From Flavobacteriales bacterium (GTDB lineage: Bacteria; Bacteroidota; Bacteroidia; Flavobacteriales_F; PHOS-HE28): a stretch of DNA of 64,000 nucleotides. This document shows, one piece after another, positions 17,749 through 29,851 of the stretch. The notes beneath the pieces were generated by a model that saw only the letters and a program-made list of their open reading frames with translations, was not told where the DNA came from and did no database searches. The stretch lies in contig JAEUTA010000007.1 in assembly GCA_016788205.1 (NCBI GenBank), positions 99,327-163,326 of the forward strand, in the 5' to 3' direction. The translations under genes were made by a program, and so were the position numbers. The stretch's first letter is position 1. Each line of letters opens with the position of its first letter.

Positions 17749-19329
17749 ATGAACAGACGTCATTTCCTTCGGTCGGCAGGAACCGTTACCATCGGTGGCA
17801 TGGCAGTGCGCGGCCTCAGCGCTCCGTTGCTCGCCCCCCTGAGCCGCAGCGTTGCAGAGGACCGTGTGCTGGTGATCATACAGCTCTATGGTGGCAACGA
17901 TGGCTTGAACACGGTGATCCCCATCAGCTCATACAGCCAGCTGAGCGCGCTGCGATCCCAAGTGATCATCCCACAGTCCTCCGTGCTCCCTCTGAGCGGT
18001 CTCAGTGGCACAGGTCTGCATCCAGCCATGGGAGGTATGCAGCAGCTCTGGAACGATGGTAAGCTATCGATCGTGCAAGGTGTGAGCTACCCAGACCCGA
18101 ACTTCAGTCACTTCCGCGCTGCGGACATCTACGAGACCGGTTCCGATGCGGATCAGATCCTGAGCTCGGGCTGGGCCGGACGCTACCTCAGCTTCGAGTA
18201 TCCCAATTACCCGGTGGGCTACCCCAATACCAACATGACCGACCCGCTCGCCATACGCGTGGATGGTGGTGTGGGTATCGGACTGCAGAACATGGGGGTG
18301 AACATGGGGATGAGCATCAACAACACGAACGACCCGCTCAACCTCACCGGCAACATCTACACCGATCCGGTCACAGCCGATTGCAAGGGCGACAAACTCG
18401 CGATGCTCCGCACCGTTCAACGCCAGACGGATCTGTACGGCAACGTTATCGAGAGCGCGGCGGGAAGCAGTTGTACGCACAGTACCCTATATCCCACTTT
18501 CAGCACCGAAGCCACTCGTTTGGGCAACGCGCTGAAGATCGTATCCCAACTCATCTGTGGTGGGCTCAAGACCAAGATCTACTGGGTCAGCATGGGTGGA
18601 TTCGATACGCATGCATCGCAGGTCGACCCCGGGAATCATGCCACCGGTACACATGCCAATCTGCTGCGTGCGGTGAGCGATAATATCCGTGCCTTCCAGC
18701 ATGACCTGCAGATCATGGGCGTGGAAGACCGCGTGATGGGTATGACCTTCAGCGAATTCGGCCGACGTATCACCAGCAATGCCTCCTACGGCACCGACCA
18801 CGGCAGCGCACAACCCATGTTCCTGTTCGGCACCAGTGTTCTGCCGGGGATGCTGGGGACCAACCCCGTGATCCCCACGAACACCACCTCGGCCACCAAT
18901 CTGGCCATGCAGTACGACTTCCGCAGTGTCTACGCCAGTGTGCTGCGGGACTGGTTCTGCCTGGAGCAGCATGATATCGATACCGTTCTGCTGAACACTT
19001 ACCAGCCCTTGAACGTGATCAACAACGCAGGCTGCATCAGTACGGACATCCGTGAGGCGAACCAGAACGCGGGTGTGGAATTGCTCAATGCCTATCCGAA
19101 CCCTTTCGTGGAACGCACCACGTTGGAGTACACCACGCTCGGAGGGCCCACCATGCTGCAAGTGTTCAACGAACAAGGGCAGATCGTGCGCACCTTGTTC
19201 AACAAGGTGATGGCTCCGGGAACCTACAAGGCCGACCTCGATCTCGGAGATATGCAGACGGGTATCTACTATGCACGTCTGCAGAACGGGACCAACCAAC
19301 AGGTGCGAAACCTGCTGAAGGTGCGCTGA
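17749..19329 (+). CDS. DUF1501 protein with T9SS sorting domain, copy 1
   Basis: A 526-residue protein. The N-terminus MNRRHFLRSAGTVTIGG carries a twin-arginine-like RR motif and small hydrophobic core. The DUF1501 body contains VLVIIQLYGGNDGLNTVIP, GLHPAMGG, YPDPNFSHFRAADIYETG, WVSMGGFDTHASQ and MTFSEFGRRITSNASYGTDHG, which places metal-binding His/Asp in an alkaline-phosphatase-like fold. The last 80 residues (LLNAYPNPFVERTTLEY to RNLLKVR) are a T9SS type A sorting domain, so the mature protein is surface-attached or secreted. Substrate unknown. Followed by 222 bp without a gene. Confidence 0.9.
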   Translation: MNRRHFLRSAGTVTIGGMAVRGLSAPLLAPLSRSVAEDRVLVIIQLYGGNDGLNTVIPISSYSQLSALRSQVIIPQSSVLPLSGLSGTGLHPAMGGMQQLWNDGKLSIVQGVSYPDPNFSHFRAADIYETGSDADQILSSGWAGRYLSFEYPNYPVGYPNTNMTDPLAIRVDGGVGIGLQNMGVNMGMSINNTNDPLNLTGNIYTDPVTADCKGDKLAMLRTVQRQTDLYGNVIESAAGSSCTHSTLYPTFSTEATRLGNALKIVSQLICGGLKTKIYWVSMGGFDTHASQVDPGNHATGTHANLLRAVSDNIRAFQHDLQIMGVEDRVMGMTFSEFGRRITSNASYGTDHGSAQPMFLFGTSVLPGMLGTNPVIPTNTTSATNLAMQYDFRSVYASVLRDWFCLEQHDIDTVLLNTYQPLNVINNAGCISTDIREANQNAGVELLNAYPNPFVERTTLEYTTLGGPTMLQVFNEQGQIVRTLFNKVMAPGTYKADLDLGDMQTGIYYARLQNGTNQQVRNLLKVR

Positions 19330-19551
19330 ACCTACCCTCTTCCATGCTCCGATCCCGGCCCCGAAGGCCGGGATCGTTCGTTGAAGCCTTGGGAAATGGG
19401 CCGGATACGAGCGCCTGTGCACCTCCTCGTAGGCAATGAATTGAACTTCGTCGTCGTTCCAACGTCACACCGTCTACATGTTGATCACTTTGACCGTCCA
19501 TCCGCGTAGCACCACCTGAGCCTTCCTAGTTTTCGGAACCGAGCCATCACC

Positions 19552-21204
19552 ATGCCCATCACCCCATACACCGGCCCCTTTGAAAGAGCGGAGCTCCAAC
19601 ACCTCTTGCGGCGTAGCTTGTTCGGTTGTACCGTAGCCGATCGCGCACACTTCGCAGGCATGAGCCTTACCGCCGTGGTGGACGAATTGCTCAGCTTCAC
19701 CAACGATAGTGTACCTCCGGTACGCACCTACACCGACGAGAACGGCAACCCCGATGGTATCGACCCGGCGGTGCCCTTCGGCCAGACCTGGGTGAGCACG
19801 CCCATCGTTCCAACGAATGATACCGACATCATCGAACTACGGCTGCGCAGTTGGGCAGCTTGGTGGATGGGGCAGATGGTGGATCAGCAACGGAACCTGC
19901 GCGAAAAACTCACGCTCTTCTGGCACAACCACATGCCCACGCAAACGGCCGTCGTTTACCAGAGCGAGATGCAGTACAGCATGAACCAGTTGTTGCGCAC
20001 GCAATGCAAAGGCAACTTCAGGCAGTTGATCCACGATGTGACACTGGAACCTGCGATGTTGTATTACCTGAACGGCTACTTGAACATCGCCAGTGCTCCG
20101 GACGAGAACTACGGAAGGGAGTTGCTGGAGCTTTTCACACTGGGCCAGGGAAGCGGTTACACGGAGGAAGATGTGCAAGCGGCGGCGCGTGTTCTGACCG
20201 GATGGACCTTCAGGCAGGAGGATGAGAACGATCAGCCGATCCTCCCGCAGAGCTACTTCTACGCTCCCAACCACACCACGACGGACAAGCAATTCAGTGG
20301 CTTCTTCAACAACACGGTTATCCAGGGACAGAGCGGAGCGAACGCGGGCGAGACCGAACTGAACGTGTTGCTGGATATGATCCTCGCTACGGAAGAATGC
20401 CCGCGCTTCATCTGTCGCGAGCTCTACCGCTTCTTCGTACATGGTGAGATCAGCGAGCAGGCCGAAGCAGACGTGATCGTGCCGCTAGCCGAACTCTTCC
20501 ACGACAACGTTGACGCGCCTGACCAGATCGCGATCGTCATGCGCGCACTGCTCACGAGCGATCACTTCTTCAGCCCCATCATCCGTGGCTGCATGGTGAA
20601 GAGCCCCGTGGACCTGGTCGTTGGCGACTATCGTCTCTTCGGATTCCCCACCCCGAACCAAGCGTTGCCCGAAGCGCGACACATCGTGAACCTGGAGCAA
20701 TACTGGCTCGTGGCGTACGCCGGACAGAATCTGCTGGAACCACCGAACGTAGCAGGCTGGCCAGCCTATTATCTCTATCCCAGTTACGACGAACTCTGGC
20801 TGGACACCGCTACTTATCCGCAGCGGAACAATTCCCTGCTCGCCGTGGTCTATGGTTCCGTGGAAACGCCCAACAACACCGTCCTGCCGGACAATGCGAA
20901 CCTGGAGTTCAGGGTGGATATCGTCGCTTTCGCAGAGCAGCTCAGCGATCCAGCCGACCCTAACGTCTTGATCCAGGATCTGGTGGACCTGTTCTATGTG
21001 AACACTATCTCGGCCACGGTCAAGCAGCAACTGAAACAGCAATACCTGCTCTTCGGCCAGTTGAGCGACATCTATTGGACCGAGGCTTACGAACTCTACA
21101 TCAGCGATCCGAACACCACGAACATGACGGCACAACTCGTACCAGAGATCCTGCGTTGGCTGATCGGAGATATACAGAAGGCCGCTGAACGTCACATCTT
21201 CTGA
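19552..21204 (+). CDS. DUF1800 family protein, copy 2
   Basis: A 550-residue paralogue of the copy at 16079 with the same landmarks: HLLRRSLFGCTVADR, LFWHNHMPTQ, LEPAMLYYLNGYLNIASAPDENYGRELLELFTLGQG, VLTGWTFRQ and LEPPNVAGWPAYY. Conservation is strong in these blocks and weak in the C-terminal third (about residues 400-480), where the two copies differ in sequence and in the spacing of loops, so the duplication is not recent. It lies 11 bp upstream of its DUF1501 partner, the same spacing as in copy 1. Confidence 0.9.
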   Translation: MPITPYTGPFERAELQHLLRRSLFGCTVADRAHFAGMSLTAVVDELLSFTNDSVPPVRTYTDENGNPDGIDPAVPFGQTWVSTPIVPTNDTDIIELRLRSWAAWWMGQMVDQQRNLREKLTLFWHNHMPTQTAVVYQSEMQYSMNQLLRTQCKGNFRQLIHDVTLEPAMLYYLNGYLNIASAPDENYGRELLELFTLGQGSGYTEEDVQAAARVLTGWTFRQEDENDQPILPQSYFYAPNHTTTDKQFSGFFNNTVIQGQSGANAGETELNVLLDMILATEECPRFICRELYRFFVHGEISEQAEADVIVPLAELFHDNVDAPDQIAIVMRALLTSDHFFSPIIRGCMVKSPVDLVVGDYRLFGFPTPNQALPEARHIVNLEQYWLVAYAGQNLLEPPNVAGWPAYYLYPSYDELWLDTATYPQRNNSLLAVVYGSVETPNNTVLPDNANLEFRVDIVAFAEQLSDPADPNVLIQDLVDLFYVNTISATVKQQLKQQYLLFGQLSDIYWTEAYELYISDPNTTNMTAQLVPEILRWLIGDIQKAAERHIF

Positions 21205-21215
21205 CCCACACCACC

Positions 21216-22793
21216 ATGCGCCGCCGCTCCTTCCTCCGCTCCGCCTCGGCCGCCACCCTTGGTGGTTTCGCCGTTCGTGGTTTCAGCAACCCGATGCTCG
21301 CTCCGCTGCTGAGCGATGTGGCTGAAGACCGCGTGCTGGTCATCATTCAACTCTACGGTGGCAACGATGGCCTGAATACCGTGATCCCCCTCGATCAGTA
21401 CGGAGTACTCTCGACCGTACGGTCCAACGTGCTGATCCCCGAAAGTGCCGTGCTCGACCTACCCGGACTTTCCGCCACAGGCCTGCATCCCGTCATGGGC
21501 GGCATGCGCGAACTGTGGCAGAACGGCAAGCTCAGCATCATCCAAGGGGTGGGCTATCCTAATCCTGACTTCTCACATTTCCGCAGCACCGACATCTGGG
21601 AGACCGGCGCGAACAGCGACCAACTGCTCGCCAGTGGATGGACCGGCCGATACCTGCACAACGAATATCCCAACTTCCCGAACGGCTACCCGAACGCCAC
21701 GATGCCCGATCCGTTGGCGATCCGCATCGGTGGGCCTATCAGCATCGGCCTGCAGCATCAAGGTGTGGCCATGGGCGCTTCCATCTATAACACGGAGGAT
21801 TCGCTCAACCTGACCGGCAACCTATTCAATGATCCCGTGACCGCGGATTGCATGGGCTCGAAGCTCGATTTCGTGCGCACCGTGCAACGCCAGGCCGATC
21901 TCTACGGCGATGTGATCGAGGCGGCGGCACAACCGGGCTGCAACATGAGCACCCTTTATCCCACCGGCAACGAGCCCGGTGCAGAGCTAGCGAACGCGTT
22001 GAAGATCGTGGCACAATTGATCTGCGGCGGTTTGAGAACACGGATCTACTGGGTGGGTATCGATGGCTTCGATACCCATGCCCAACAAGTGGTCGCAGGC
22101 AACACGACGACCGGCGCACATGCCGATCTCCTGAAGGGACTATCGGACAGTGTACACGCTTTCCAGAACGACCTTGAGCTGCTCGGCTTGGACCAGCGCG
22201 TGATCGGCATGACCTTCTCCGAGTTCGGGCGTAGGATCAAGAGCAACGCTTCACGTGGCACCGATCACGGAACGGCGGCTCCGCTCTTCCTCTTCGGCAC
22301 CAATGTGCTTCCAGGCATGCTTGGCGAGAACCCCGACATCCCGGCTAACACCACCTACGACACGAACCTGCCCATGCAATACGATTTCCGCAGCTTGTAT
22401 GCGAGCGTGCTGAAGGATTGGTTCTGCCTCGACCAGGATGCGGTGGACACCGTTCTGCTCGATACGTATCAAACCCTTTCCCTCCTAGACCCCAGCGGTT
22501 GCATGGATACGAGCGTCCGTGATGCCAACCAGACCGCTGGAATATCCATGCTCGATGTGTTCCCGAACCCATTCACAGCTGTGATCAACTTACGCTTCGA
22601 TGCGAGCGGTGATCGGACGCTCGTTCAGGTCTACGGAGAGAATGGGCAGGTGGTGCGCACGATATTCAACGGTCCGCTGGCGCGTGGCGAACACCGCCTG
22701 CAGGTGGACCTCTCGGATCTTCCGTCGGGTGCATACTACTGCCGCGTGCAGAACGGCATGCAGCAGCAAGTGAAAGCCGTGATCAAAATGTGA
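21216..22793 (+). CDS. DUF1501 protein with T9SS sorting domain, copy 2
   Basis: A 525-residue paralogue of the copy at 17749. It has a Tat-like start (MRRRSFLRSASAATLGG), VLVIIQLYGGNDGLNTVIP, the HFRSTDIWETG block, WVGIDGFDTHAQQ and MTFSEFGRRIKSNASRGTDHG. The C-terminal 80 residues (MLDVFPNPFTAVINLRF to VKAVIKM) form a T9SS type A sorting domain. The export signal plus T9SS tail predicts a cell-surface enzyme. Directly after the stop there is a perfect 10-bp hairpin. Confidence 0.9.
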   Translation: MRRRSFLRSASAATLGGFAVRGFSNPMLAPLLSDVAEDRVLVIIQLYGGNDGLNTVIPLDQYGVLSTVRSNVLIPESAVLDLPGLSATGLHPVMGGMRELWQNGKLSIIQGVGYPNPDFSHFRSTDIWETGANSDQLLASGWTGRYLHNEYPNFPNGYPNATMPDPLAIRIGGPISIGLQHQGVAMGASIYNTEDSLNLTGNLFNDPVTADCMGSKLDFVRTVQRQADLYGDVIEAAAQPGCNMSTLYPTGNEPGAELANALKIVAQLICGGLRTRIYWVGIDGFDTHAQQVVAGNTTTGAHADLLKGLSDSVHAFQNDLELLGLDQRVIGMTFSEFGRRIKSNASRGTDHGTAAPLFLFGTNVLPGMLGENPDIPANTTYDTNLPMQYDFRSLYASVLKDWFCLDQDAVDTVLLDTYQTLSLLDPSGCMDTSVRDANQTAGISMLDVFPNPFTAVINLRFDASGDRTLVQVYGENGQVVRTIFNGPLARGEHRLQVDLSDLPSGAYYCRVQNGMQQQVKAVIKM

Positions 22794-23294: not shown

Positions 23295-23325
23295 GCTGTT
23301 TTACAGCGGTCCCGCGATACGCGAA

Positions 23326-23390
23326 GGGGATCCCTGCAATAGGCTGAACTACGATCCGGAACAACACCGGACCGTAGCGCAGGGATCCCC
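23326..23390 (+). ncRNA. large hairpin just upstream of the first tRNA-like gene
   Basis: Outer 12-bp perfect stem GGGGATCCCTGC / GCAGGGATCCCC, an asymmetric internal loop, then CTACG / CGTAG and TCCGG / CCGGA stems closed by a 7-nt loop. It ends 12 nt before the Leu-like tRNA. It could be a leader, a processing signal or an independent small RNA; the sequence does not decide. Confidence 0.6.
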
Positions 23391-23402
23391 GATCATCGAT
23401 AA

Positions 23403-23475
23403 GCCAGGTTGGTGAAATGGCAGACACGCCTCGCTCAGAACGAGGATGCTGGGGGTTCGACTCCCTCACTGGGCA
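23403..23475 (+). tRNA. tRNA-Leu(CAG)-like, lacking the long variable arm
   Basis: Cloverleaf parts: acceptor GCCAGGT with ACTGGGC (one A-G mismatch and one G-U), a Leu-type D-arm (GTG...CAC with AAATGGCAGA), anticodon arm CCTCG-CTCAGAA-CGAGG (anticodon CAG, U33 and A37 present), a 5-nt variable loop ATGCT, T-arm GGGGG-TTCGACT-CCCTC, discriminator A. Bacterial leucine tRNAs are class II with a long variable arm; here that arm is absent. No CCA is encoded. It may be a non-translating tRNA mimic or a decayed gene. Confidence 0.65.
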
Positions 23476-23635
23476 CGAAGACGTTCTTTACATACTGTGC
23501 TTTCAGCACAAAAGACCTTGCTCGAAAGGGCAAGCACGAGGAGAGGCCGAATGTGTCGGACCAGATGCGGGTTTCAACGCCCCATGGTGCCGTAGCGCTT
23601 CGCTCGCGGTATGCCGCCGCACAGGAGTTCTGTTC

Positions 23636-23712
23636 CTCACAATTGGAAGTCGCAGGTTCGAATCCTGCCGTGGTCACTAGGCCATGTAGCTCAGTTCGGT
23701 TAGAGCACCAAT
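23636..23712 (+). tRNA. circularly permuted tRNA-like element A (possible Val)
   Basis: The 3' half comes first: anticodon-stem strand ATTGG (23642-23646), variable AAGTC, T-arm GCAGG-TTCGAAT-CCTGC (23652-23668), acceptor CGTGGTC, discriminator A (23676). After a 3-nt linker the 5' half follows: acceptor GGCCATG (23680-23686), TA, D-arm GCTC...GAGC (to 23706), A, and anticodon-stem strand CCAAT (23708-23712). Acceptors pair 7 of 7 (two G-U) and the anticodon stem CCAAT/ATTGG 5 of 5. The break falls in or beside the anticodon loop. If the loop is CTCACAA from the 3' half the anticodon would be CAC (Val), with a 4-bp stem. The halves sum to about 74 nt, normal tRNA size. Confidence 0.65.
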
Positions 23713-23716
23713 CCAT

Positions 23717-23796
23717 GGGTCACGGGTTCGAATCCCGTTCTTGACCACTCGTCAAGATAGCTCAGTGGTAGAGCACTGGACTGTTAATCCAGATGG
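23717..23796 (+). tRNA. circularly permuted tRNA-Asn(GTT)-like element B
   Basis: The 3' half comes first: GGGTC, T-arm ACGGG-TTCGAAT-CCCGT (23722-23738), acceptor TCTTGAC (23739-23745), C. After a 4-nt linker the 5' half follows: acceptor GTCAAGA (23751-23757), TA, D-arm GCTC-AGTGGTA-GAGC, A, complete anticodon arm CTGGA-CTGTTAA-TCCAG (23776-23792, anticodon GTT, U33 and A37 present). The acceptor strands pair 7 of 7 with Watson-Crick pairs. The break is in the variable loop. Only four bases separate element A's last stem strand from this element's first. Total about 72 nt. Confidence 0.7.
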
Positions 23797-24164
23797 AATG
23801 GTCGGGTACCATCTCAAAAATGCCCATCCCTGAAAGCGATGTTGGATCCACCGGTCCTGCATGTTGCCCTTGAACGCGCACGACGACCGGCGTCCGTCCT
23901 GCGGATCCCACTCTGCACGGCAGCGGCCATCGAACACCCTTCACCCGAACGCATCGGGACCACTTCACGCATTTCGTGTTGCGGCAATGATGCACAACGG
24001 TGAGCGGTCAACGGTCGGCCAACGCCACGCAACGGGTTCCCCGCCGAACGCGGGTGGTGGATCCTCATCGCTTTCTCTTGAACAATACAAGTGATCCCAT
24101 CACTCATGAAATAACCGGTCAACGGTGCCCACCGGAAGCGGCACCACAACTCACCAACGTTTCG
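23797..24164. other. non-coding stretch between permuted elements and SPFH gene
   Basis: No convincing ORF. A short hairpin ATGGT / ACCAT follows element B near 23799, and GGTGCC / GGCACC pairs near 24124-24146. No clear promoter was seen. It could be the 5' leader of the SPFH gene. Confidence 0.4.
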
Positions 24165-24205
24165 CATGGTACTGCGATGCGCTGGCCAACACCTGATGTA
24201 CCATG
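24165..24205 (+). promoter_or_regulatory. inverted repeat covering the SPFH start codon
   Basis: CATGGTAC at 24165-24172 is perfectly complementary to GTACCATG at 24198-24205, and the right arm contains the ATG at 24203. In the mRNA this would place the start codon in a stem. No Shine-Dalgarno is visible just upstream. Confidence 0.45.
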
Positions 24206-25309
24206 ATGACCATACGTATCCAGGAAGGCAAGGTCGCGCTCGTCTTCCGCAACGGTAACTACCTGCGCGTCCTGAAGCCCGGCTTCCATTTCATCGGCTT
24301 GTTCGATGCCGTGAAGGTCTACGACACCGCGCTGCCCTTCAACGCGCCTGTCACTCTGGAACTGCTCCTGCGCGATGCCGAGCTCGCCGCGATGCTCACC
24401 ATCGTGGAGGTGGGTGACAACCAGCTGGTGCTGAAGTACCGCAACGGCAACTTCCAAGAGGTGCTGAAGCCCGGCCGCTATGCCTTCTTCAACTCCTTGA
24501 TCCAACTCACGTTCATCACGATGGACCTGGGCGATATCGAGATCACGAAGGAGATCGATCGCGACCTGCTGATGAAGCCCGCACTGCTCCCCTACATCCG
24601 GGTGTACAGCGTGGATCCGCACGAACAGGGCATCCTGATGGTGGACGGTGAAGCCAAGGCCTTGCTGCAGCCCGGTGTGTACTTCTATGCGAAGAACAGC
24701 ACCGTGATCCAAGTGCTGAAGGCGGACCTGCGTTTGCTCCAACTGGAAGTGAACGGCCAGGACATCCTCACGAAGGACAAGGCCGCACTGCGCATCAACT
24801 TCAACACGCAGTACCGCGTTACCGACATCCGCAAGGCGCTGTTGGAGACCAAGGACTTCGAGAAGCAGTTGTATGTGACCGTGCAGCTGGCACTGCGCGA
24901 GTTCATCGGTACGAAGACGCTGGACGAGATCCTCGGCAACAAGGAAGAAGTGACGGCCTACGTGGACGCCACCGTGAAGGAGAAGGCCGAGGCCATCGGT
25001 GTGGCGATCAAGTACAACGGTATCAAGGACATCATCCTTCCCGGCGACATGAAGGAGATCATGAACCAGGTGCTGATCGCGCAGAAGAAGGCGGAAGCGA
25101 ACACCATCATGCGCCGCGAGGAAACGGCAAGCACGCGCAGCCTGCTGAACACCGCGAAGCTGATGGAGGACAACGCCATGCTCTTCAAGCTGAAGGAGAT
25201 GGAGTACGTGGAGAAGATCGCCGAAAAGGTGATCACGCTCTCCCTCAACGGTAACGCCAAGGTGCTGGACCAACTGAAGGAGATCTTCTCTCCGGGCAAG
25301 GCGCCTTGA
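24203..25309 (+). CDS. SPFH / slipin-like protein, RtcB-linked
   Basis: 368 residues. There is no transmembrane hairpin at the N-terminus, unlike canonical slipins. Three similar segments open the protein: EGKVALVFRNGNYLRVLKPGFHF, DNQLVLKYRNGNFQEVLKPGRY and EQGILMVDGEAKALLQPGVYFY (about residues 8-30, 71-93 and 142-163). The SPFH core follows, with KAALRINFNTQYRVTDI and QLYVTVQLALREFIGTKTLDEIL, then a charged coiled-coil (about 285-345) ending near GKAP. SPFH proteins oligomerise into rings at membranes. From memory, slipin-type genes recur beside RNA ligase RtcB in bacterial RNA-repair loci. Here tRNA-like elements flank it on both sides, and all are on the same strand. A start at the second ATG (24206) is possible. 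Confidence 0.85.
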   Translation: MMTIRIQEGKVALVFRNGNYLRVLKPGFHFIGLFDAVKVYDTALPFNAPVTLELLLRDAELAAMLTIVEVGDNQLVLKYRNGNFQEVLKPGRYAFFNSLIQLTFITMDLGDIEITKEIDRDLLMKPALLPYIRVYSVDPHEQGILMVDGEAKALLQPGVYFYAKNSTVIQVLKADLRLLQLEVNGQDILTKDKAALRINFNTQYRVTDIRKALLETKDFEKQLYVTVQLALREFIGTKTLDEILGNKEEVTAYVDATVKEKAEAIGVAIKYNGIKDIILPGDMKEIMNQVLIAQKKAEANTIMRREETASTRSLLNTAKLMEDNAMLFKLKEMEYVEKIAEKVITLSLNGNAKVLDQLKEIFSPGKAP

Positions 25310-25415: not shown

Positions 25416-25490
25416 CCATCAGAAGCTGAAATGGATGCCAGCGCCGCTTTGCGAAGGCGGAGGATGTCGGTTCGAGTCCGGCCTGATGGT
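25416..25490 (+). tRNA. tRNA-like, anticodon GCG (Arg-like)
   Basis: Acceptor CCATCAG / CTGATGG pairs 7 of 7. D-arm GCTG...CAGC, anticodon arm CCGCT-TTGCGAA-GGCGG with U33 and anticodon GCG, variable AGGAT, T-arm GTCGG-TTCGAGT-CCGGC. Odd features: position 1 is C, and anticodon GCG is not the usual bacterial Arg anticodon (ACG, read as inosine). The D-loop is unusual (AAATGGATGC). No CCA encoded. Confidence 0.6.
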
Positions 25491-25545
25491 CAATGGAACG
25501 CTGATAGCGCTGATCCAACTGATCAGCGCAGATCTGGAAATGAAT

Positions 25546-25619
25546 GGAGGGTTCGTCTAGCAGGAACAGGATAGCGCGCTTTCAACGCGTTGACGCGGGT
25601 TCGATCCCCGCACCCTCTG
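25546..25619 (+). tRNA. tRNA-Glu(TTC)
   Basis: Acceptor GGAGGGT / ACCCTCT (one G-U), Glu-type D-arm starting TTCGTCTAGC, anticodon arm GCGCG-CTTTCAA-CGCGT with anticodon TTC, short variable TGAC, T-arm GCGGG-TTCGATC-CCCGC, discriminator G as is usual for Glu. No CCA encoded. The cloverleaf is intact, so it could be translationally active. Confidence 0.82.
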
Positions 25620-25623
25620 CAAT

Positions 25624-25695
25624 GGTGCCGTAGTTGAGCGGTACGATGCCCGGCTGTCTACCGGGAGTTCACGGGTTCGATCCCCGTCGGCACCG
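25624..25695 (+). tRNA. tRNA-Asp(GTC)
   Basis: Acceptor GGTGCCG / CGGCACC pairs perfectly. D-arm as in Asp tRNAs, anticodon arm CCCGG-CTGTCTA-CCGGG with anticodon GTC, variable AGTTC, T-arm ACGGG-TTCGATC-CCCGT, discriminator G. It starts 4 nt after the Glu tRNA. Its first ten bases plus two preceding bases recur at 23583 in the first array. Confidence 0.85.
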
Positions 25696-25699
25696 CTAA

Positions 25700-25772
25700 T
25701 TGGCTTGGAGGTCGTATGGCAGACTACTCGGCTTTTAACCGAGGGGTGCGGGTTCGAATCACGCCGGCCAAC
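25700..25772 (+). tRNA. tRNA-Lys(TTT)-like
   Basis: Acceptor TTGGCTT / CGGCCAA pairs 5 of 7 plus one G-U and one mismatch. D-arm GGTC...GACT, anticodon arm CTCGG-CTTTTAA-CCGAG with anticodon TTT, variable GGGT, T-stem GCGGG / CACGC with one G-A mismatch around TTCGAAT. It begins 4 nt after the Asp gene. The mismatches and U at position 1 suggest a weakened tRNA or a mimic. Confidence 0.68.
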
Positions 25773-25804
25773 AGTGCAAGGGCGACGTATGCATCGCCCG
25801 ATAT

Positions 25805-25875
25805 GGAAGAGCAGCTCTCGGGTAGAGCGGCCGGTTGAAGCCCGGTAGGTGATGGTTCGACCCCATCCTCTTCCA
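25805..25875 (+). tRNA. tRNA-Phe(GAA)
   Basis: Acceptor GGAAGAG / CTCTTCC pairs perfectly. D-arm GCTC-TCGGGTA-GAGC, anticodon arm GCCGG-TTGAAGC-CCGGT with anticodon GAA, T-arm GATGG-TTCGACC-CCATC, discriminator A. The variable loop is short (AGGT) and position 38 is C. No CCA encoded. Confidence 0.78.
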
Positions 25876-25878
25876 CAT

Positions 25879-25992: not shown

Positions 25993-27408
25993 ATGAAAGG
26001 CTTGAAACTACATGGCAAAGACCTGATCGCCGCCGGATTCCCGGAAGGACGCGCGATCGGCATCGCTATCAACGTGATGTTGAAGCATCACCGCAAAACG
26101 AACAAGGACGAAGTGTTGGCCGAGCTGGCCCGCATCGCCTCCGACCCATCCGCCTTTGCGGACCACGAAGTATACGCGCCCATCGCGGATGCGTTGACCG
26201 GTCGCGACCGCAAGAGTGAAGCGCAGCACGAGCTGGTGGCCCGCAAGGACTACCGCGCCTACGGCAGCGAGCACATCGAGCAAGGCGCCATCCATCAGAT
26301 GGAAGTAGCGATGAAGTTGCCCGTGACGGTGTCCGGTGCGCTGATGCCCGATGCGCACCAGGGCTATGGCCTGCCCATCGGTGGCGTACTCGCCGTGGAG
26401 AACGCGGTAATCCCCTATGGCGTGGGTGTGGACATCGGTTGCCGCATGTGCCTGAGCATCTTCAACATCGCACCCGAAGTGATGGAGAAGAACCGTGCGG
26501 ACTACAAGCGCTTGCTGGTGGAGCACACGCGTTTCGGTCGTGCTGTACATGAGAAGCGCATGGATGACCCTGTCTTGGAACGCGCGGAGTTCAACACCAT
26601 TCCCGTAGTGAAGCACCTGAAGGACCGTGCATGGATGCAGATCGGCTCCAGCGGTAGCGGCAACCACTTCGTGGAGTTCGGTGTGGTGGAGATCACCGAT
26701 GCGCAGAACGAATTCGGCCTGCCCTTGGGGAATTATCTCGCGCTGCTCTCGCACAGCGGATCGCGCGGCATGGGTGCCGGTATCGCGGCGCATTACACGC
26801 GTGTGGCGAAGGAGCAATGCAAGCTGCCTGCGGAGGCACAAAACCTCGCGTGGCTATCGTTGGACAGCTCCGCCGGTATGGAGTACTGGCTGGCCATGAA
26901 CCTGGCCGGTGACTTTGCTTCGGCCTGCCATCACCACATCCATGCGCGCATCGCGAAAGCGTTGGGTGAAAAGCCCGCCGCCATGGTGGAGAACCATCAC
27001 AACTTCGCGTGGAAAGAGATCCACGGCGGCAAGGAAGTGATCGTTCATCGCAAAGGCGCGACGCCTGCGGGGAAAGGTGTGTTGGGGGTGATCCCCGGCA
27101 GCATGACCGCTCCAGGGTACATCGTACGCGGGACCGGTGTGGCGGAGAGCATCTCTTCAGCGAGCCACGGGGCTGGACGCTTGATGAGCCGTACAAAGGC
27201 CAAGGAGGCGCTGGATGCGAAGAGCGTGAAGCAGCACTTGGAGGAACACGGCATCGACCTGATCGGTGGCGGGCTGGATGAAGCACCCATGGCCTACAAG
27301 GACATCCATACGGTGATGAACAGCCAGCGTGAACTGGTGGAAGTGATCGGTTCATTCACGCCGAAAGTGGTGCGGATGTGCGGCGATGGAAGTGCGGCGG
27401 AGGATTGA
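25993..27408 (+). CDS. rtcB: RtcB family RNA ligase (long form)
   Basis: 471 residues, longer than the E. coli enzyme (about 408) by an N-terminal region of about 80 residues (GLKLHGKDLIAAGFPEG... KHHRKTNKDEVLAELARIASDP). Core motifs: LMPDAHQGYGLPIGGV, VGVDIGCRMCLS (metal-binding Asp and Cys; Arg where many RtcB proteins have Gly), MQIGSSGSGNHFVEFG, LSHSGSRGMG, and SISSASHGAGRLMSR, whose His accepts GMP. RtcB joins 2',3'-cyclic-phosphate or 3'-phosphate RNA ends to 5'-OH ends using GTP, as needed to reseal cleaved tRNAs or to close permuted ones. The start has a GA-rich ribosome site (GAAGAAG) 27 nt after the Tyr-like tRNA, so co-transcription with the array is likely. No archease is in the window. 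Confidence 0.93.
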   Translation: MKGLKLHGKDLIAAGFPEGRAIGIAINVMLKHHRKTNKDEVLAELARIASDPSAFADHEVYAPIADALTGRDRKSEAQHELVARKDYRAYGSEHIEQGAIHQMEVAMKLPVTVSGALMPDAHQGYGLPIGGVLAVENAVIPYGVGVDIGCRMCLSIFNIAPEVMEKNRADYKRLLVEHTRFGRAVHEKRMDDPVLERAEFNTIPVVKHLKDRAWMQIGSSGSGNHFVEFGVVEITDAQNEFGLPLGNYLALLSHSGSRGMGAGIAAHYTRVAKEQCKLPAEAQNLAWLSLDSSAGMEYWLAMNLAGDFASACHHHIHARIAKALGEKPAAMVENHHNFAWKEIHGGKEVIVHRKGATPAGKGVLGVIPGSMTAPGYIVRGTGVAESISSASHGAGRLMSRTKAKEALDAKSVKQHLEEHGIDLIGGGLDEAPMAYKDIHTVMNSQRELVEVIGSFTPKVVRMCGDGSAAED

Positions 27409-27466: not shown

Positions 27467-29851
27467 TTACGCCTCCTTCTTCACCCACGCCTGCACCATC
27501 CGGAGCTTCCCGAAGCTGAACCGGTCACCGAAGTTGGCACGAGCCTCGTTGAGCCCTTTGCCTTCGTTCTCACGCATCCAATCGGCGATGGTCTCGCGCT
27601 CCTCTGCGGGCATCACGGACTCGATGTCCAGTACACCTTCGGCGATGCCCCGTGCGAAATGGCCTTCGATGGTGCTCTTCGCCATGGACCGCGTTGAGGC
27701 GATCTCGTCTATGCCCATGCCTTCCTTCTGCAAGGCGTAGGTGGTTTCGTAGGTGCTGCCTTTGGCGGGGCGTTCCTTGGGCTTGGCACCTACGTGTCGA
27801 CCCAGTGGGTCGACGCTACTGGTGCTGTCGGGAACGTCATCCGTATCCGAACTGCGTTTGCGCTTTTTGCCAGTTCTGCCCTTCGGTCGGTTCTCTTCGG
27901 CCCAGATGCGCACCTCACCCACCATGGCCGCGCGCTTTTCGGCAAGGCCACGTTCGATCTCGGGGCGCTTCTTCACCTCCTCACCGTTGAGAATGCAACC
28001 CGCCACGTAGCCGACTTTGGCGATGGTGGCGATCTTCTTCATCAACATACCGTCGATCTCCTTCAACGCGTTGCCGTATTCCTTGGCCTTGCTCAACAGC
28101 TCCACTTGCGCCAGGTGCTCGAACAACGCGCGCATGCTCTTCTGCAACATGCCATTGTAGTACGCACCGCCCTTCTCGATGCGTTCCAACAGTTCCTCAC
28201 GCTTATCCTCGAACATCAAGCGCATCAACTGGCCACGGAACTTCTGTGTATTCTCCTCTTCGGCCCGCAACTTCTCCCGCAACACCTGCAACGCGGTCTT
28301 CATGCTGTCATCGGCGAACTGCGCGGTCTCCGGATGATCCTTTTGTGTGTATTCGATCTTCCGCAGCATATCACCGAAGTCGAACGTTCCGCCTAGCAAC
28401 AGTTGCAGGTATTCGCGCTGGCGGGCTTTCAATTGGTCCACCAAAGGATCTTGAGCGAAGCCGCGTTCGGTGAAGGCGACCACCTCCCTATCGTTGCTCA
28501 CCACGGAGGGATCGATGCGCGTACGGAGGATCAGACCATCGAGGGAACGCAAGCGTGACAAGGCCACATAGACCTGCCCCGGTGCGAAGGCACTGCCCAC
28601 GTCGATGATGGCCTTGTCGAACGTAAGGCCCTGGCTCTTGTGTACGGTGATCGCCCACGCGAGCTTGATCGGGTACTGCTCGAAGGTGCCCAGCAACTGT
28701 TCCTCTTGTTCCTTGGTGGTGGCGTTCACCACGTAACGCTTGTTCTCCCAGCTTTCACGCTTCAACTTATACACCTCGCCGGTATCCATGCGCACGGTGA
28801 TGCCATCCACAGCGAGCGTTTCCACTTTCGCGAGCTTGCCATTGAAGTAAGCCTTCTCCATATCGTTCTTCACGAACATCACCTGGGCACCCTCCTTCAG
28901 TTCGATACGCTCCAGCACGGGATACATGCTCTCGGGGAAGTCGCCATCGCTGATCGCCTCGAACATGTAGGTACGCCCGGGCAGTTTGGCCAGCGCGCGC
29001 TGGTTCAGCTCATCGGCCTTGTAGTTGTGGGTGGTCAGGGTGATGATGCCCTCGCTTTCCTTTTCGCTTATCTCGTTCCGGTAGTGCTCGTTCAGCGTAG
29101 CGATGTCCGCTTGCGTGACCGTGTTGTTGCGCAGGTTGTTGAGGATGTGGATGAAGTCGCCATCCTGCTGGCGGAAGATCTTGTCCAGCTCGATGTGCGC
29201 GTAGCCATACTGTTGCATCACATGGCTCTCGAAGAAGTGCGGACTGCGGTACCAACGTTGCAGCACACGGAACTCCTCGTCCTTCACCACAGGGGGCAAC
29301 TGGTACAGATCACCGATCAAGAGCACTTGTGCGCCACCGAAGCTCTGCTGCCTATTCTGACGCACGGCACGCATGCGGAAATCAATGGCATCGAGCACAT
29401 CGGCGCGCAGCATGCTCACCTCGTCGATGATGAGCAGGTCCACTTCGCGCAGCACGTTGCGCCGGATGTTGTTGAGCGGGTGGCGCTTCGTGAGCGTGTC
29501 CTGATCATGGAACTGCCCGCTGGTGATGTCCGCAGGCAGGTGCTTTTCCGGAATGAACGTCCCGAACGGCAACAGGAATTGCGAGTGGATGGTGACACCC
29601 TTCGCGTTGAGCGCCGCGATGCCCGTGGGGGCCAGGATCACATACCGCTTGTGGGTGCTGGCGGCCAGCTTGTGGAGGAAGGTGGTCTTTCCGGTGCCGG
29701 CCTTCCCGGTAAGGAATACGTGGCGATTCGTGCTGTTTACGAAGCGCGCGGCCAGGGTGGCCATTTCGGTCTCGACGTGCGCATCGGAGGTTGAACGGTC
29801 GGAATTCACTTCGCGAAGGTCGGAAGTGCGTGCTTCATTCGGGAAGAACAT
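27467..29851 (-). CDS. PIF1/RecD-like helicase with C-terminal Helicase_HTH domain
   Basis: 794 residues. Walker A FLTGKAGTGKTTFLHKL (about 45-61), VILAPTGIAALNAKGVTIHSQFLLPFG, Walker B LLIIDEVSMLRADVLDAID, IGDLYQLPPVV, and motif VI ITVHKSQGLTFDKAIIDVG with VYVALSRLRSLDGLIL. This is a superfamily 1B 5'-3' DNA helicase. The tail (about 700-760, SMAKSTIEGHFARGIAEG) is a Helicase_HTH DNA-binding module. The common Bacteroidota form has this architecture. Start may be 29851 or MATLAARFV at 29764. A low-complexity linker (about 655-690) holds a dispersed palindrome that encodes SSVDPLGRHVG. Confidence 0.9.
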   Translation of the reverse strand: MFFPNEARTSDLREVNSDRSTSDAHVETEMATLAARFVNSTNRHVFLTGKAGTGKTTFLHKLAASTHKRYVILAPTGIAALNAKGVTIHSQFLLPFGTFIPEKHLPADITSGQFHDQDTLTKRHPLNNIRRNVLREVDLLIIDEVSMLRADVLDAIDFRMRAVRQNRQQSFGGAQVLLIGDLYQLPPVVKDEEFRVLQRWYRSPHFFESHVMQQYGYAHIELDKIFRQQDGDFIHILNNLRNNTVTQADIATLNEHYRNEISEKESEGIITLTTHNYKADELNQRALAKLPGRTYMFEAISDGDFPESMYPVLERIELKEGAQVMFVKNDMEKAYFNGKLAKVETLAVDGITVRMDTGEVYKLKRESWENKRYVVNATTKEQEEQLLGTFEQYPIKLAWAITVHKSQGLTFDKAIIDVGSAFAPGQVYVALSRLRSLDGLILRTRIDPSVVSNDREVVAFTERGFAQDPLVDQLKARQREYLQLLLGGTFDFGDMLRKIEYTQKDHPETAQFADDSMKTALQVLREKLRAEEENTQKFRGQLMRLMFEDKREELLERIEKGGAYYNGMLQKSMRALFEHLAQVELLSKAKEYGNALKEIDGMLMKKIATIAKVGYVAGCILNGEEVKKRPEIERGLAEKRAAMVGEVRIWAEENRPKGRTGKKRKRSSDTDDVPDSTSSVDPLGRHVGAKPKERPAKGSTYETTYALQKEGMGIDEIASTRSMAKSTIEGHFARGIAEGVLDIESVMPAEERETIADWMRENEGKGLNEARANFGDRFSFGKLRMVQAWVKKEA
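27796..27814. repeat. dispersed palindrome, copy 2 (inside the helicase gene)
   Basis: GTCGACCC, three bases, GGGTCGAC, in frame within the PIF1-like helicase linker, where it encodes SVDPLGR. It shares about 31 positions of alignment with copy 1 at 7752. Confidence 0.8.

Follow-up and report, generated by a model that had tools for sequence, protein, structure and literature searches.

The closest described systems are the bacterial Y RNAs, permuted tRNA genes and a stress regulon of Anabaena. YrlA, a bacterial Y RNA of RNA-repair operons, is reported to mimic tRNA by its T, D and acceptor arms, to undergo modification by tRNA enzymes and to act as a tether between Rsr and PNPase (PMC8394870). 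The bacterial Y RNA structure 6CU1 is described as superposing on tRNA by circular permutation (PMC11472068). The tRNA-like domain of YrlA has been suggested to be a competitive inhibitor of an anticodon nuclease, and the same source, in the part drawn on here, reports Salmonella YrlA as uncut by the nuclease that cuts tRNAs there (PMC7790460). In some bacteria YrlA lies beside RtcB, as does the RNA described below (PMC8394870; PMC7790460). Circularly permuted tRNA genes of algae and archaea place the 3' part before the 5' part with a short linker, again like the modules described below (PMC3978253; PMC3218864), and are reported to give ligated, working tRNA (PMC3978253). The repressor TrcR of Anabaena controls rtcB, a slipin gene and a 26-tRNA operon, all of them tied to translational stress, which releases the tRNA operon from TrcR (PMC10272220). 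A slipin gene, rtcB and extra tRNAs thus respond together there, much as they sit together in the present island, but the Anabaena genes are scattered and the sections of the two reports drawn on mention no permuted tRNA-like RNA (PMC10272220; PMC9938897); the authors of one of them warn of an erythromycin effect (PMC9938897).

The locus described here lies in a 64,000-nucleotide stretch of Flavobacteriales DNA (the window), where a predicted structured RNA precedes a slipin gene and an RtcB gene. In 2016 Burroughs and Aravind reportedly described a novel tRNA-like RNA that is the partner of SPFH/Band-7 modules within RNA-repair systems (Nucleic Acids Res 44:8525). We presume that this is very likely the family of the window's RNA; the likeness lies in the company of a slipin/Band-7 gene and RtcB. 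Because the permuted topology of Y RNA is in print and a Band-7 RNA was reportedly described in 2016, the family is probably known in outline. We regard the window's RNA as a new variant: it combines two modules with an anticodon arm of changing anticodon, and our searches traced it to no publication. Our literature search, which took in few subscription papers, returned no description of this RNA, and we do not claim its absence from print.

Two tandem modules occupy positions 23642-23792 of the window (all features are on the + strand unless stated), each ordered T-arm, acceptor 3' strand, short loop, acceptor 5' strand, D-arm, and each with an acceptor that pairs inside its own module. Module 1 (23642-23712) is closed by the basal stem ATTGG/CCAAT, the strands of which (23642-23646 and 23708-23712) form 5/5 pairs. 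It contains a T-arm recognised by sequence (23652-23668), an acceptor hairpin CGTGGTC-ACTA-GGCCATG (23669-23686) placed by pairing and by the free fold, with the 3' strand at 23669-23675, the 4-nt loop ACTA at 23676-23679 and the 5' strand at 23680-23686, and a D-arm placed by motif location (23689-23706). Module 2, also placed by motif location, spans 23722-23792 including its anticodon arm. Its T-arm (23722-23738) was assigned by sequence and alignment, its acceptor hairpin TCTTGAC-CACTC-GTCAAGA (23739-23757; 3' strand 23739-23745, loop CACTC 23746-23750, 5' strand 23751-23757) by pairing and by compensatory changes in 30 aligned sequences, and its D-arm (23760-23774) by motif location and alignment. 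The anticodon arm CTGGA-CTGTTAA-TCCAG (23776-23792) carries the Asn-type anticodon GTT at 23783-23785.

An earlier note on this DNA had proposed two tRNA-like elements with the 3' part ahead of the 5' part, and both module location and the pairing tests given below bear this out. Re-reading gave the same counts as that note: 7/7 acceptor pairs including two G-U pairs in the first element, and 7/7 Watson-Crick pairs together with a GTT anticodon arm in the second. The 5/5 'anticodon stem' that it assigned to the first element does pair, but it has no loop and is instead the basal stem, the RNA's way in and out of the module. This stem reads ATCGG/CCGAT in the ortholog L066, and in the first modules of 27 loci it forms 3.26/5 pairs versus 2.59 after permutation, with 0/2000 permutations as good. 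In the free RNA fold, both T-arms and the capped acceptor hairpin of module 1 form. Two foldings compared with shuffled sequences gave z scores of -2.62 (2/200 as good) and -1.92 (6/100 as good).

We examined the permuted pairing in 84 regions upstream of slipin genes, comprising 80 slipin loci, the window and three further orthologs from the host family. Only the T-arm and D-arm motifs and their spacing were used to pick modules, and the acceptor was scored afterwards. The 94 modules found in 64 of the 84 regions, a few of which may be ordinary neighbouring tRNAs, have acceptors forming 6.27/7 pairs in cis versus 3.34 between loci; they include 83 distinct acceptor pairs, and their summed cis pairing was reached by 0/10,000 permutations. 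At the 28 loci with two or three modules, a permuted reading gives 6.33/7 pairs (58 modules) and a linear reading 3.00/7 (30 neighbour pairs), so that linear pairing in multi-module loci stands at the background level. A covariation alignment of 30 rows was drawn from 39 sequences with a clean anticodon arm; its anticodon-stem rows were picked for a full stem, while the acceptor was no criterion. In this alignment 95.5% of cells are paired versus 65.9% after shuffling, the covariation score was reached by 0/500 shuffles, and all seven acceptor pairs show changes on both sides; the fourth and last D-stem pair is unpaired in 14/30 rows. With a looser detector that required acceptor pairing, a module was found in 61/79 slipin loci, the matches at L098 and L115 scoring poorly, and none in the other 18, of which 3 have less than 370 nt upstream.

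These results bear on whether the locus is debris of ordinary tandem tRNA genes, brought into this order by deletions. The Rfam tRNA model, which has a cut-off of 29 bits, does weakly accept both linear readings, at 34.9 and 34.0 bits, with an arm omitted or displaced. Passing that cut-off notwithstanding, acceptor strands enclosing D, anticodon and T arms, as in a linear tRNA, were not found, the linear pairing being 3.00/7, and ARAGORN reported no tRNA at 23642-23792. The same permuted order is kept in relatives, among which intact linear tRNAs at this locus, as the earlier note would have expected of such debris, were not seen. Given the cis pairing of 94 modules within the permuted unit, the background level of linear pairing and the compensatory acceptor changes, we consider this origin ruled out for practical purposes and give it next to no weight.

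The connectivity of the modules is that of bacterial Y RNA. A permissive Rfam search of 23400-24000 matched YrlA (RF02553) to both modules, at 23644-23711 (38.1 bits, model positions 23-86 of 114) and at 23714-23781 (35.5 bits, positions 23-88), with a family cut-off of 69; each match includes the T-arm of its module, and the scores in three orthologs range from 30.1 to 46.6 bits. The matches did not extend to model positions 1-22 and 89-114, the outer part that binds Ro. The YrlA consensus runs T-arm, capped hairpin, D-arm, and the window RNA has the T-arm, capped acceptor and D-arm together with a basal stem, which in YrlA, as in module 1, takes the place of the anticodon arm. The window RNA differs from YrlA in scoring below the family cut-off, in belonging to a family that usually has two modules, the last of which adds an anticodon arm with a varying anticodon, and in having a slipin as its partner gene. 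It differs further in that no Ro60/Rsr (TROVE) gene was found in its own genome, which is 94% complete; TROVE is present in 10 of the 42 module-bearing genomes searched. The comparison extends Y-RNA-type tRNA mimicry to genomes where no Ro60 was found.

The earlier note had read the two elements as permuted tRNA genes, cut and joined by RtcB into tRNAs, here a tRNA-Asn and a second tRNA. In its favour, ARAGORN takes module 2 with its halves swapped for a tRNA-Asn(GTT) of 74 bases, and an RtcB gene does lie nearby; module 1 has no anticodon loop and gave nothing after the swap. The algal and archaeal genes yield functional tRNAs, whereas here one module lacks an anticodon loop and the genome has intact tRNAs, including a tRNA-Asn(GTT) and three tRNA-Met genes. 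The acceptors are closed by short loops (4 nt being commonest, in 30 of 89 tips counted), the anticodon changes among orthologs and reads as a stop codon in 2/38 last arms across Bacteroidota, and Y RNA already provides a bacterial example of the order T-arm, capped acceptor, D-arm. In view of the intact tRNA-Asn(GTT), the loopless module 1, the shifting anticodon and the Y RNA precedent, we find that reading unsupported and rate it as very improbable; processing of module 2 into a tRNA is unlikely.

No tRNA identity is conserved in the orthologs, as the anticodon differs among the nine host-family sequences. Their last arms carry GTT (window, L076), TGT (L079), TCG (L065), GAG (L077), GAT (L071) and GCA (L078, L080), and L066 is without a clean anticodon arm. 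More widely, 39/61 last modules have a 5/5 anticodon stem directly after the D-arm and 22/61 have no such clean arm. The 39 clean arms have U33 in 38, a purine at position 37 in 38, and 16 different anticodons, so that the predicted arm keeps its loop framework while the anticodon varies. In L078 and L080 a simple hairpin, with a Cys-type (GCA) anticodon arm behind it, stands in place of module 2; the T and D arms are lost there and the anticodon arm is kept. A second anticodon-type hairpin, ATGGA-ct-NNN-aa-TCCAT, lies beyond the tRNA-like anticodon arm in L114, L122, L149, L152 and others. We also considered whether the mimicked anticodon and the nearby linear tRNAs complement each other in their tasks and rejected this, as 6 overlaps were seen in 24 loci with 5.56 expected.

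The modules form part of a longer predicted structured RNA at 23487-23860, outlined by the ortholog alignment and consisting of a 5' domain, the two modules, the anticodon arm, a 3' hairpin and a 3' tail. Both ends are estimates from conservation in nine distinct orthologs of the host family, in which identity is 1.00 over 23487-23511 and 0.87 over 23837-23861; because moderate identity (0.48-0.93) continues as far as the start of slipin, the position of the 3' end is uncertain. The nine sequences share a 5' block starting TTTACATACTGTGCTTTCAGCACAA, the modules, the anticodon arm, the hairpin and a 3' block, with two modules in five of them and one in four. Within TTTACATACTGTGCTTTCAGCACAA, a perfect inverted repeat, TGTGC-TTTCA-GCACA (23496-23510), is identical in all nine and is possibly the first hairpin of the RNA or an operator. 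The 3' hairpin after the anticodon arm, ATGGT-CGGGT-ACCAT (23798-23812), was read from the sequence without a formal test and appears in orthologs as GGAAG..CTTCC or GGGAG..CTCCC. Searches of Rfam 15 gave no family covering the RNA above threshold. Further upstream, ahead of a tRNA-Leu gene, inverted repeats GGGGATCCCT...AGGGATCCCC lie at about 23325-23392, and similar GGGATCCC stretches occur upstream in most of the host-family orthologs compared.

Downstream of the RNA lie a slipin gene (24203-25309; SPFH/Band-7, 368 aa, Pfam Band_7 113.9 bits) and an RtcB RNA ligase gene (25993-27408; 471 aa, Pfam RtcB 273.2 bits), the latter being the ligase gene that had been placed 2.2 kb downstream from the letters alone. 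Among 45 host-family genomes, the RNA was found in 9, and all 9 have a slipin gene downstream of it. A tenth slipin genome, G012, is without the RNA, and its contig starts 361 nt ahead of slipin. In the RNA carrier G063, the slipin match is partial and RtcB lies on another contig. A long RtcB was found in 8/9 RNA carriers and also in G018 and G033, both without slipin and without the RNA. Of the 80 slipin loci, 56 have RtcB within the flanks retrieved, some of these with no more than 27-37% identity, and 49 have ARAGORN tRNAs; RtcB is present in 40 of 42 module-bearing genomes searched. When a covariance model of module 2 was run on 395 genomes of the phylum with slipin ignored, 11 of 29 loci had slipin downstream, including all 7 loci from other genomes that scored at least 67 bits; matches below 67 bits are mixed with apparent ordinary neighbouring tRNAs. 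In its own genome this model gave 77.1 bits for module 2, which is itself a row of the model, 51.0 for module 1 and 39.3 for the next match. Judged by these comparisons, the predicted RNA goes with the slipin (Band-7) gene. As a census of the phylum the model was discarded as unspecific, some match, apparently to ordinary neighbouring tRNAs, being found in 392/395 genomes at E 1e-4, and we therefore claim no frequency for the RNA.

Neither slipin nor RtcB had a match in the defence library search, and an NCBIfam search gave sub-cut-off matches only. A 20-tRNA array stands directly behind an RtcB gene (59% identical to that of the window) at L058:7654-9402. Convergent with the window's RtcB gene, a PIF1-like helicase with a C-terminal HTH_40 domain is encoded on the - strand at 27467-29851, with weak matches to candidate defence models.

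Another reading is a cis-acting leader of slipin, in which cleavage or binding of the modules would control slipin and the genes behind it, as in other tRNA-sensing leaders. At the 80 slipin loci all modules detected share the strand of slipin, the D-arm ends 315-792 nt from the slipin ATG, conservation stays moderate up to the slipin start, and a scan of the + strand found no terminator-like site between the RNA and slipin. The distance to the gene is nevertheless long and variable, conservation is highest in the RNA itself, and co-transcription alone predicts the same orientation. We hold a leader function to be improbable. A scan of the RNA/slipin locus for sigma-70-type promoters found none.

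Sequence comparison establishes, for a predicted RNA, the permuted order of the modules, compensatory changes in their capped acceptor hairpins, an association with slipin, and a varying anticodon on an arm with a kept loop framework. The explanation to which we lean, if only slightly, is that these are tandem modules of one conserved predicted RNA with Y-RNA connectivity, set upstream of slipin and RtcB, which during RNA repair would be a docking platform or a decoy for tRNA and not a source of tRNA; its decoy part has perhaps an even chance at best. The locus would be transcribed, each module would fold into a tRNA-like elbow, and the free anticodon arm may draw nucleases specific for the anticodon loops of tRNAs. 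With an acceptor tip closed into a loop, the mimic would stay uncharged and outside translation. At the membrane, slipin might anchor the RNA or a damage complex, while RtcB could rejoin cut tRNAs or the cut mimic, which would be mended or replaced with RtcB's help; the neighbouring low-scoring tRNAs may be further spares or mimics. Several observations count against a decoy or platform. No nuclease to be decoyed was found, 22/61 last modules have no clean arm and 18/79 slipin loci no module, the mimicked amino acid is not kept apart from those of nearby tRNAs (6 versus 5.56 expected), the last D-stem pair fails in 14/30 rows, and YrlA was reported as uncut in the part of the literature drawn on (PMC7790460).

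A rival reading is a scaffold without a decoy. The RNA would then be to slipin what Y RNA is elsewhere, serving as tether or gate between a slipin ring and RtcB or some other RNA enzyme, and the anticodon arm would be only part of a recognised shape. The connectivity shared with YrlA agrees with such a role, as do the reported tethering of Rsr and PNPase by YrlA (PMC8394870), the strict co-occurrence with slipin and the Y-like module 1 without an anticodon loop. A scaffold alone, however, leaves unexplained why 16 anticodons occupy positions 34-36 while U33 and purine 37 stay, and why some relatives have extra anticodon-type hairpins, and we think it unlikely, if well within the range of serious possibilities. 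Returning to the decoy or docking platform, we also put forward, tentatively and with more doubt than belief, that the RNA belongs to a Ro-free, Y-RNA-like class in Bacteroidota that acts as an anticodon display. An unchargeable permuted scaffold would carry an arm swapped between species to bait different anticodon nucleases, with slipin as holder, RtcB as repairer and the adjacent tRNAs in the same bait set. Should the anticodon arm prove to be bait, the anticodons listed for the various species would be a readable record of the tRNAs under attack. The RNA explains the broken or missing tRNAs that tRNA finders report ahead of slipin genes, and supplies a testable partner for puzzling pairs of slipin and RtcB genes.

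The linear tRNAs of the island are themselves unusual. A 74-nt tRNA-Leu(CAG)-like gene without a long variable arm (23403-23476; ARAGORN; 53.3 bits) ends 10 nt ahead of the conserved 5' block of the RNA, and ARAGORN finds a Leu or Met tRNA at this position in 5/9 host-family sequences. Between slipin and RtcB, a cluster located by ARAGORN at 25416-25876 contains tRNAs for Arg(GCG), Glu, Asp, Lys and Phe (49.5, 54, 57.7, 30.8 and 51.8 bits). All six score 30.8-57.7 bits, below every one of the 28 short-variable-arm core tRNAs (at least 58.6 bits), the short- and long-variable-arm kinds being told apart by the usual grouping of Leu, Ser and Tyr tRNAs. The five core tRNA-Leu genes measure 83-86 nt versus the 74 nt of the island gene, and the genome has core copies of the island's Leu(CAG), Glu, Asp, Lys(TTT) and Phe tRNAs. 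Because of the low scores and the 74-nt tRNA-Leu, the island's linear tRNAs may be mimics or spares and not working tRNAs. At 17749-22793, two similar DUF1501-type proteins flank a DUF1800 protein of 550 aa, and the second of them has a type IX secretion tail.
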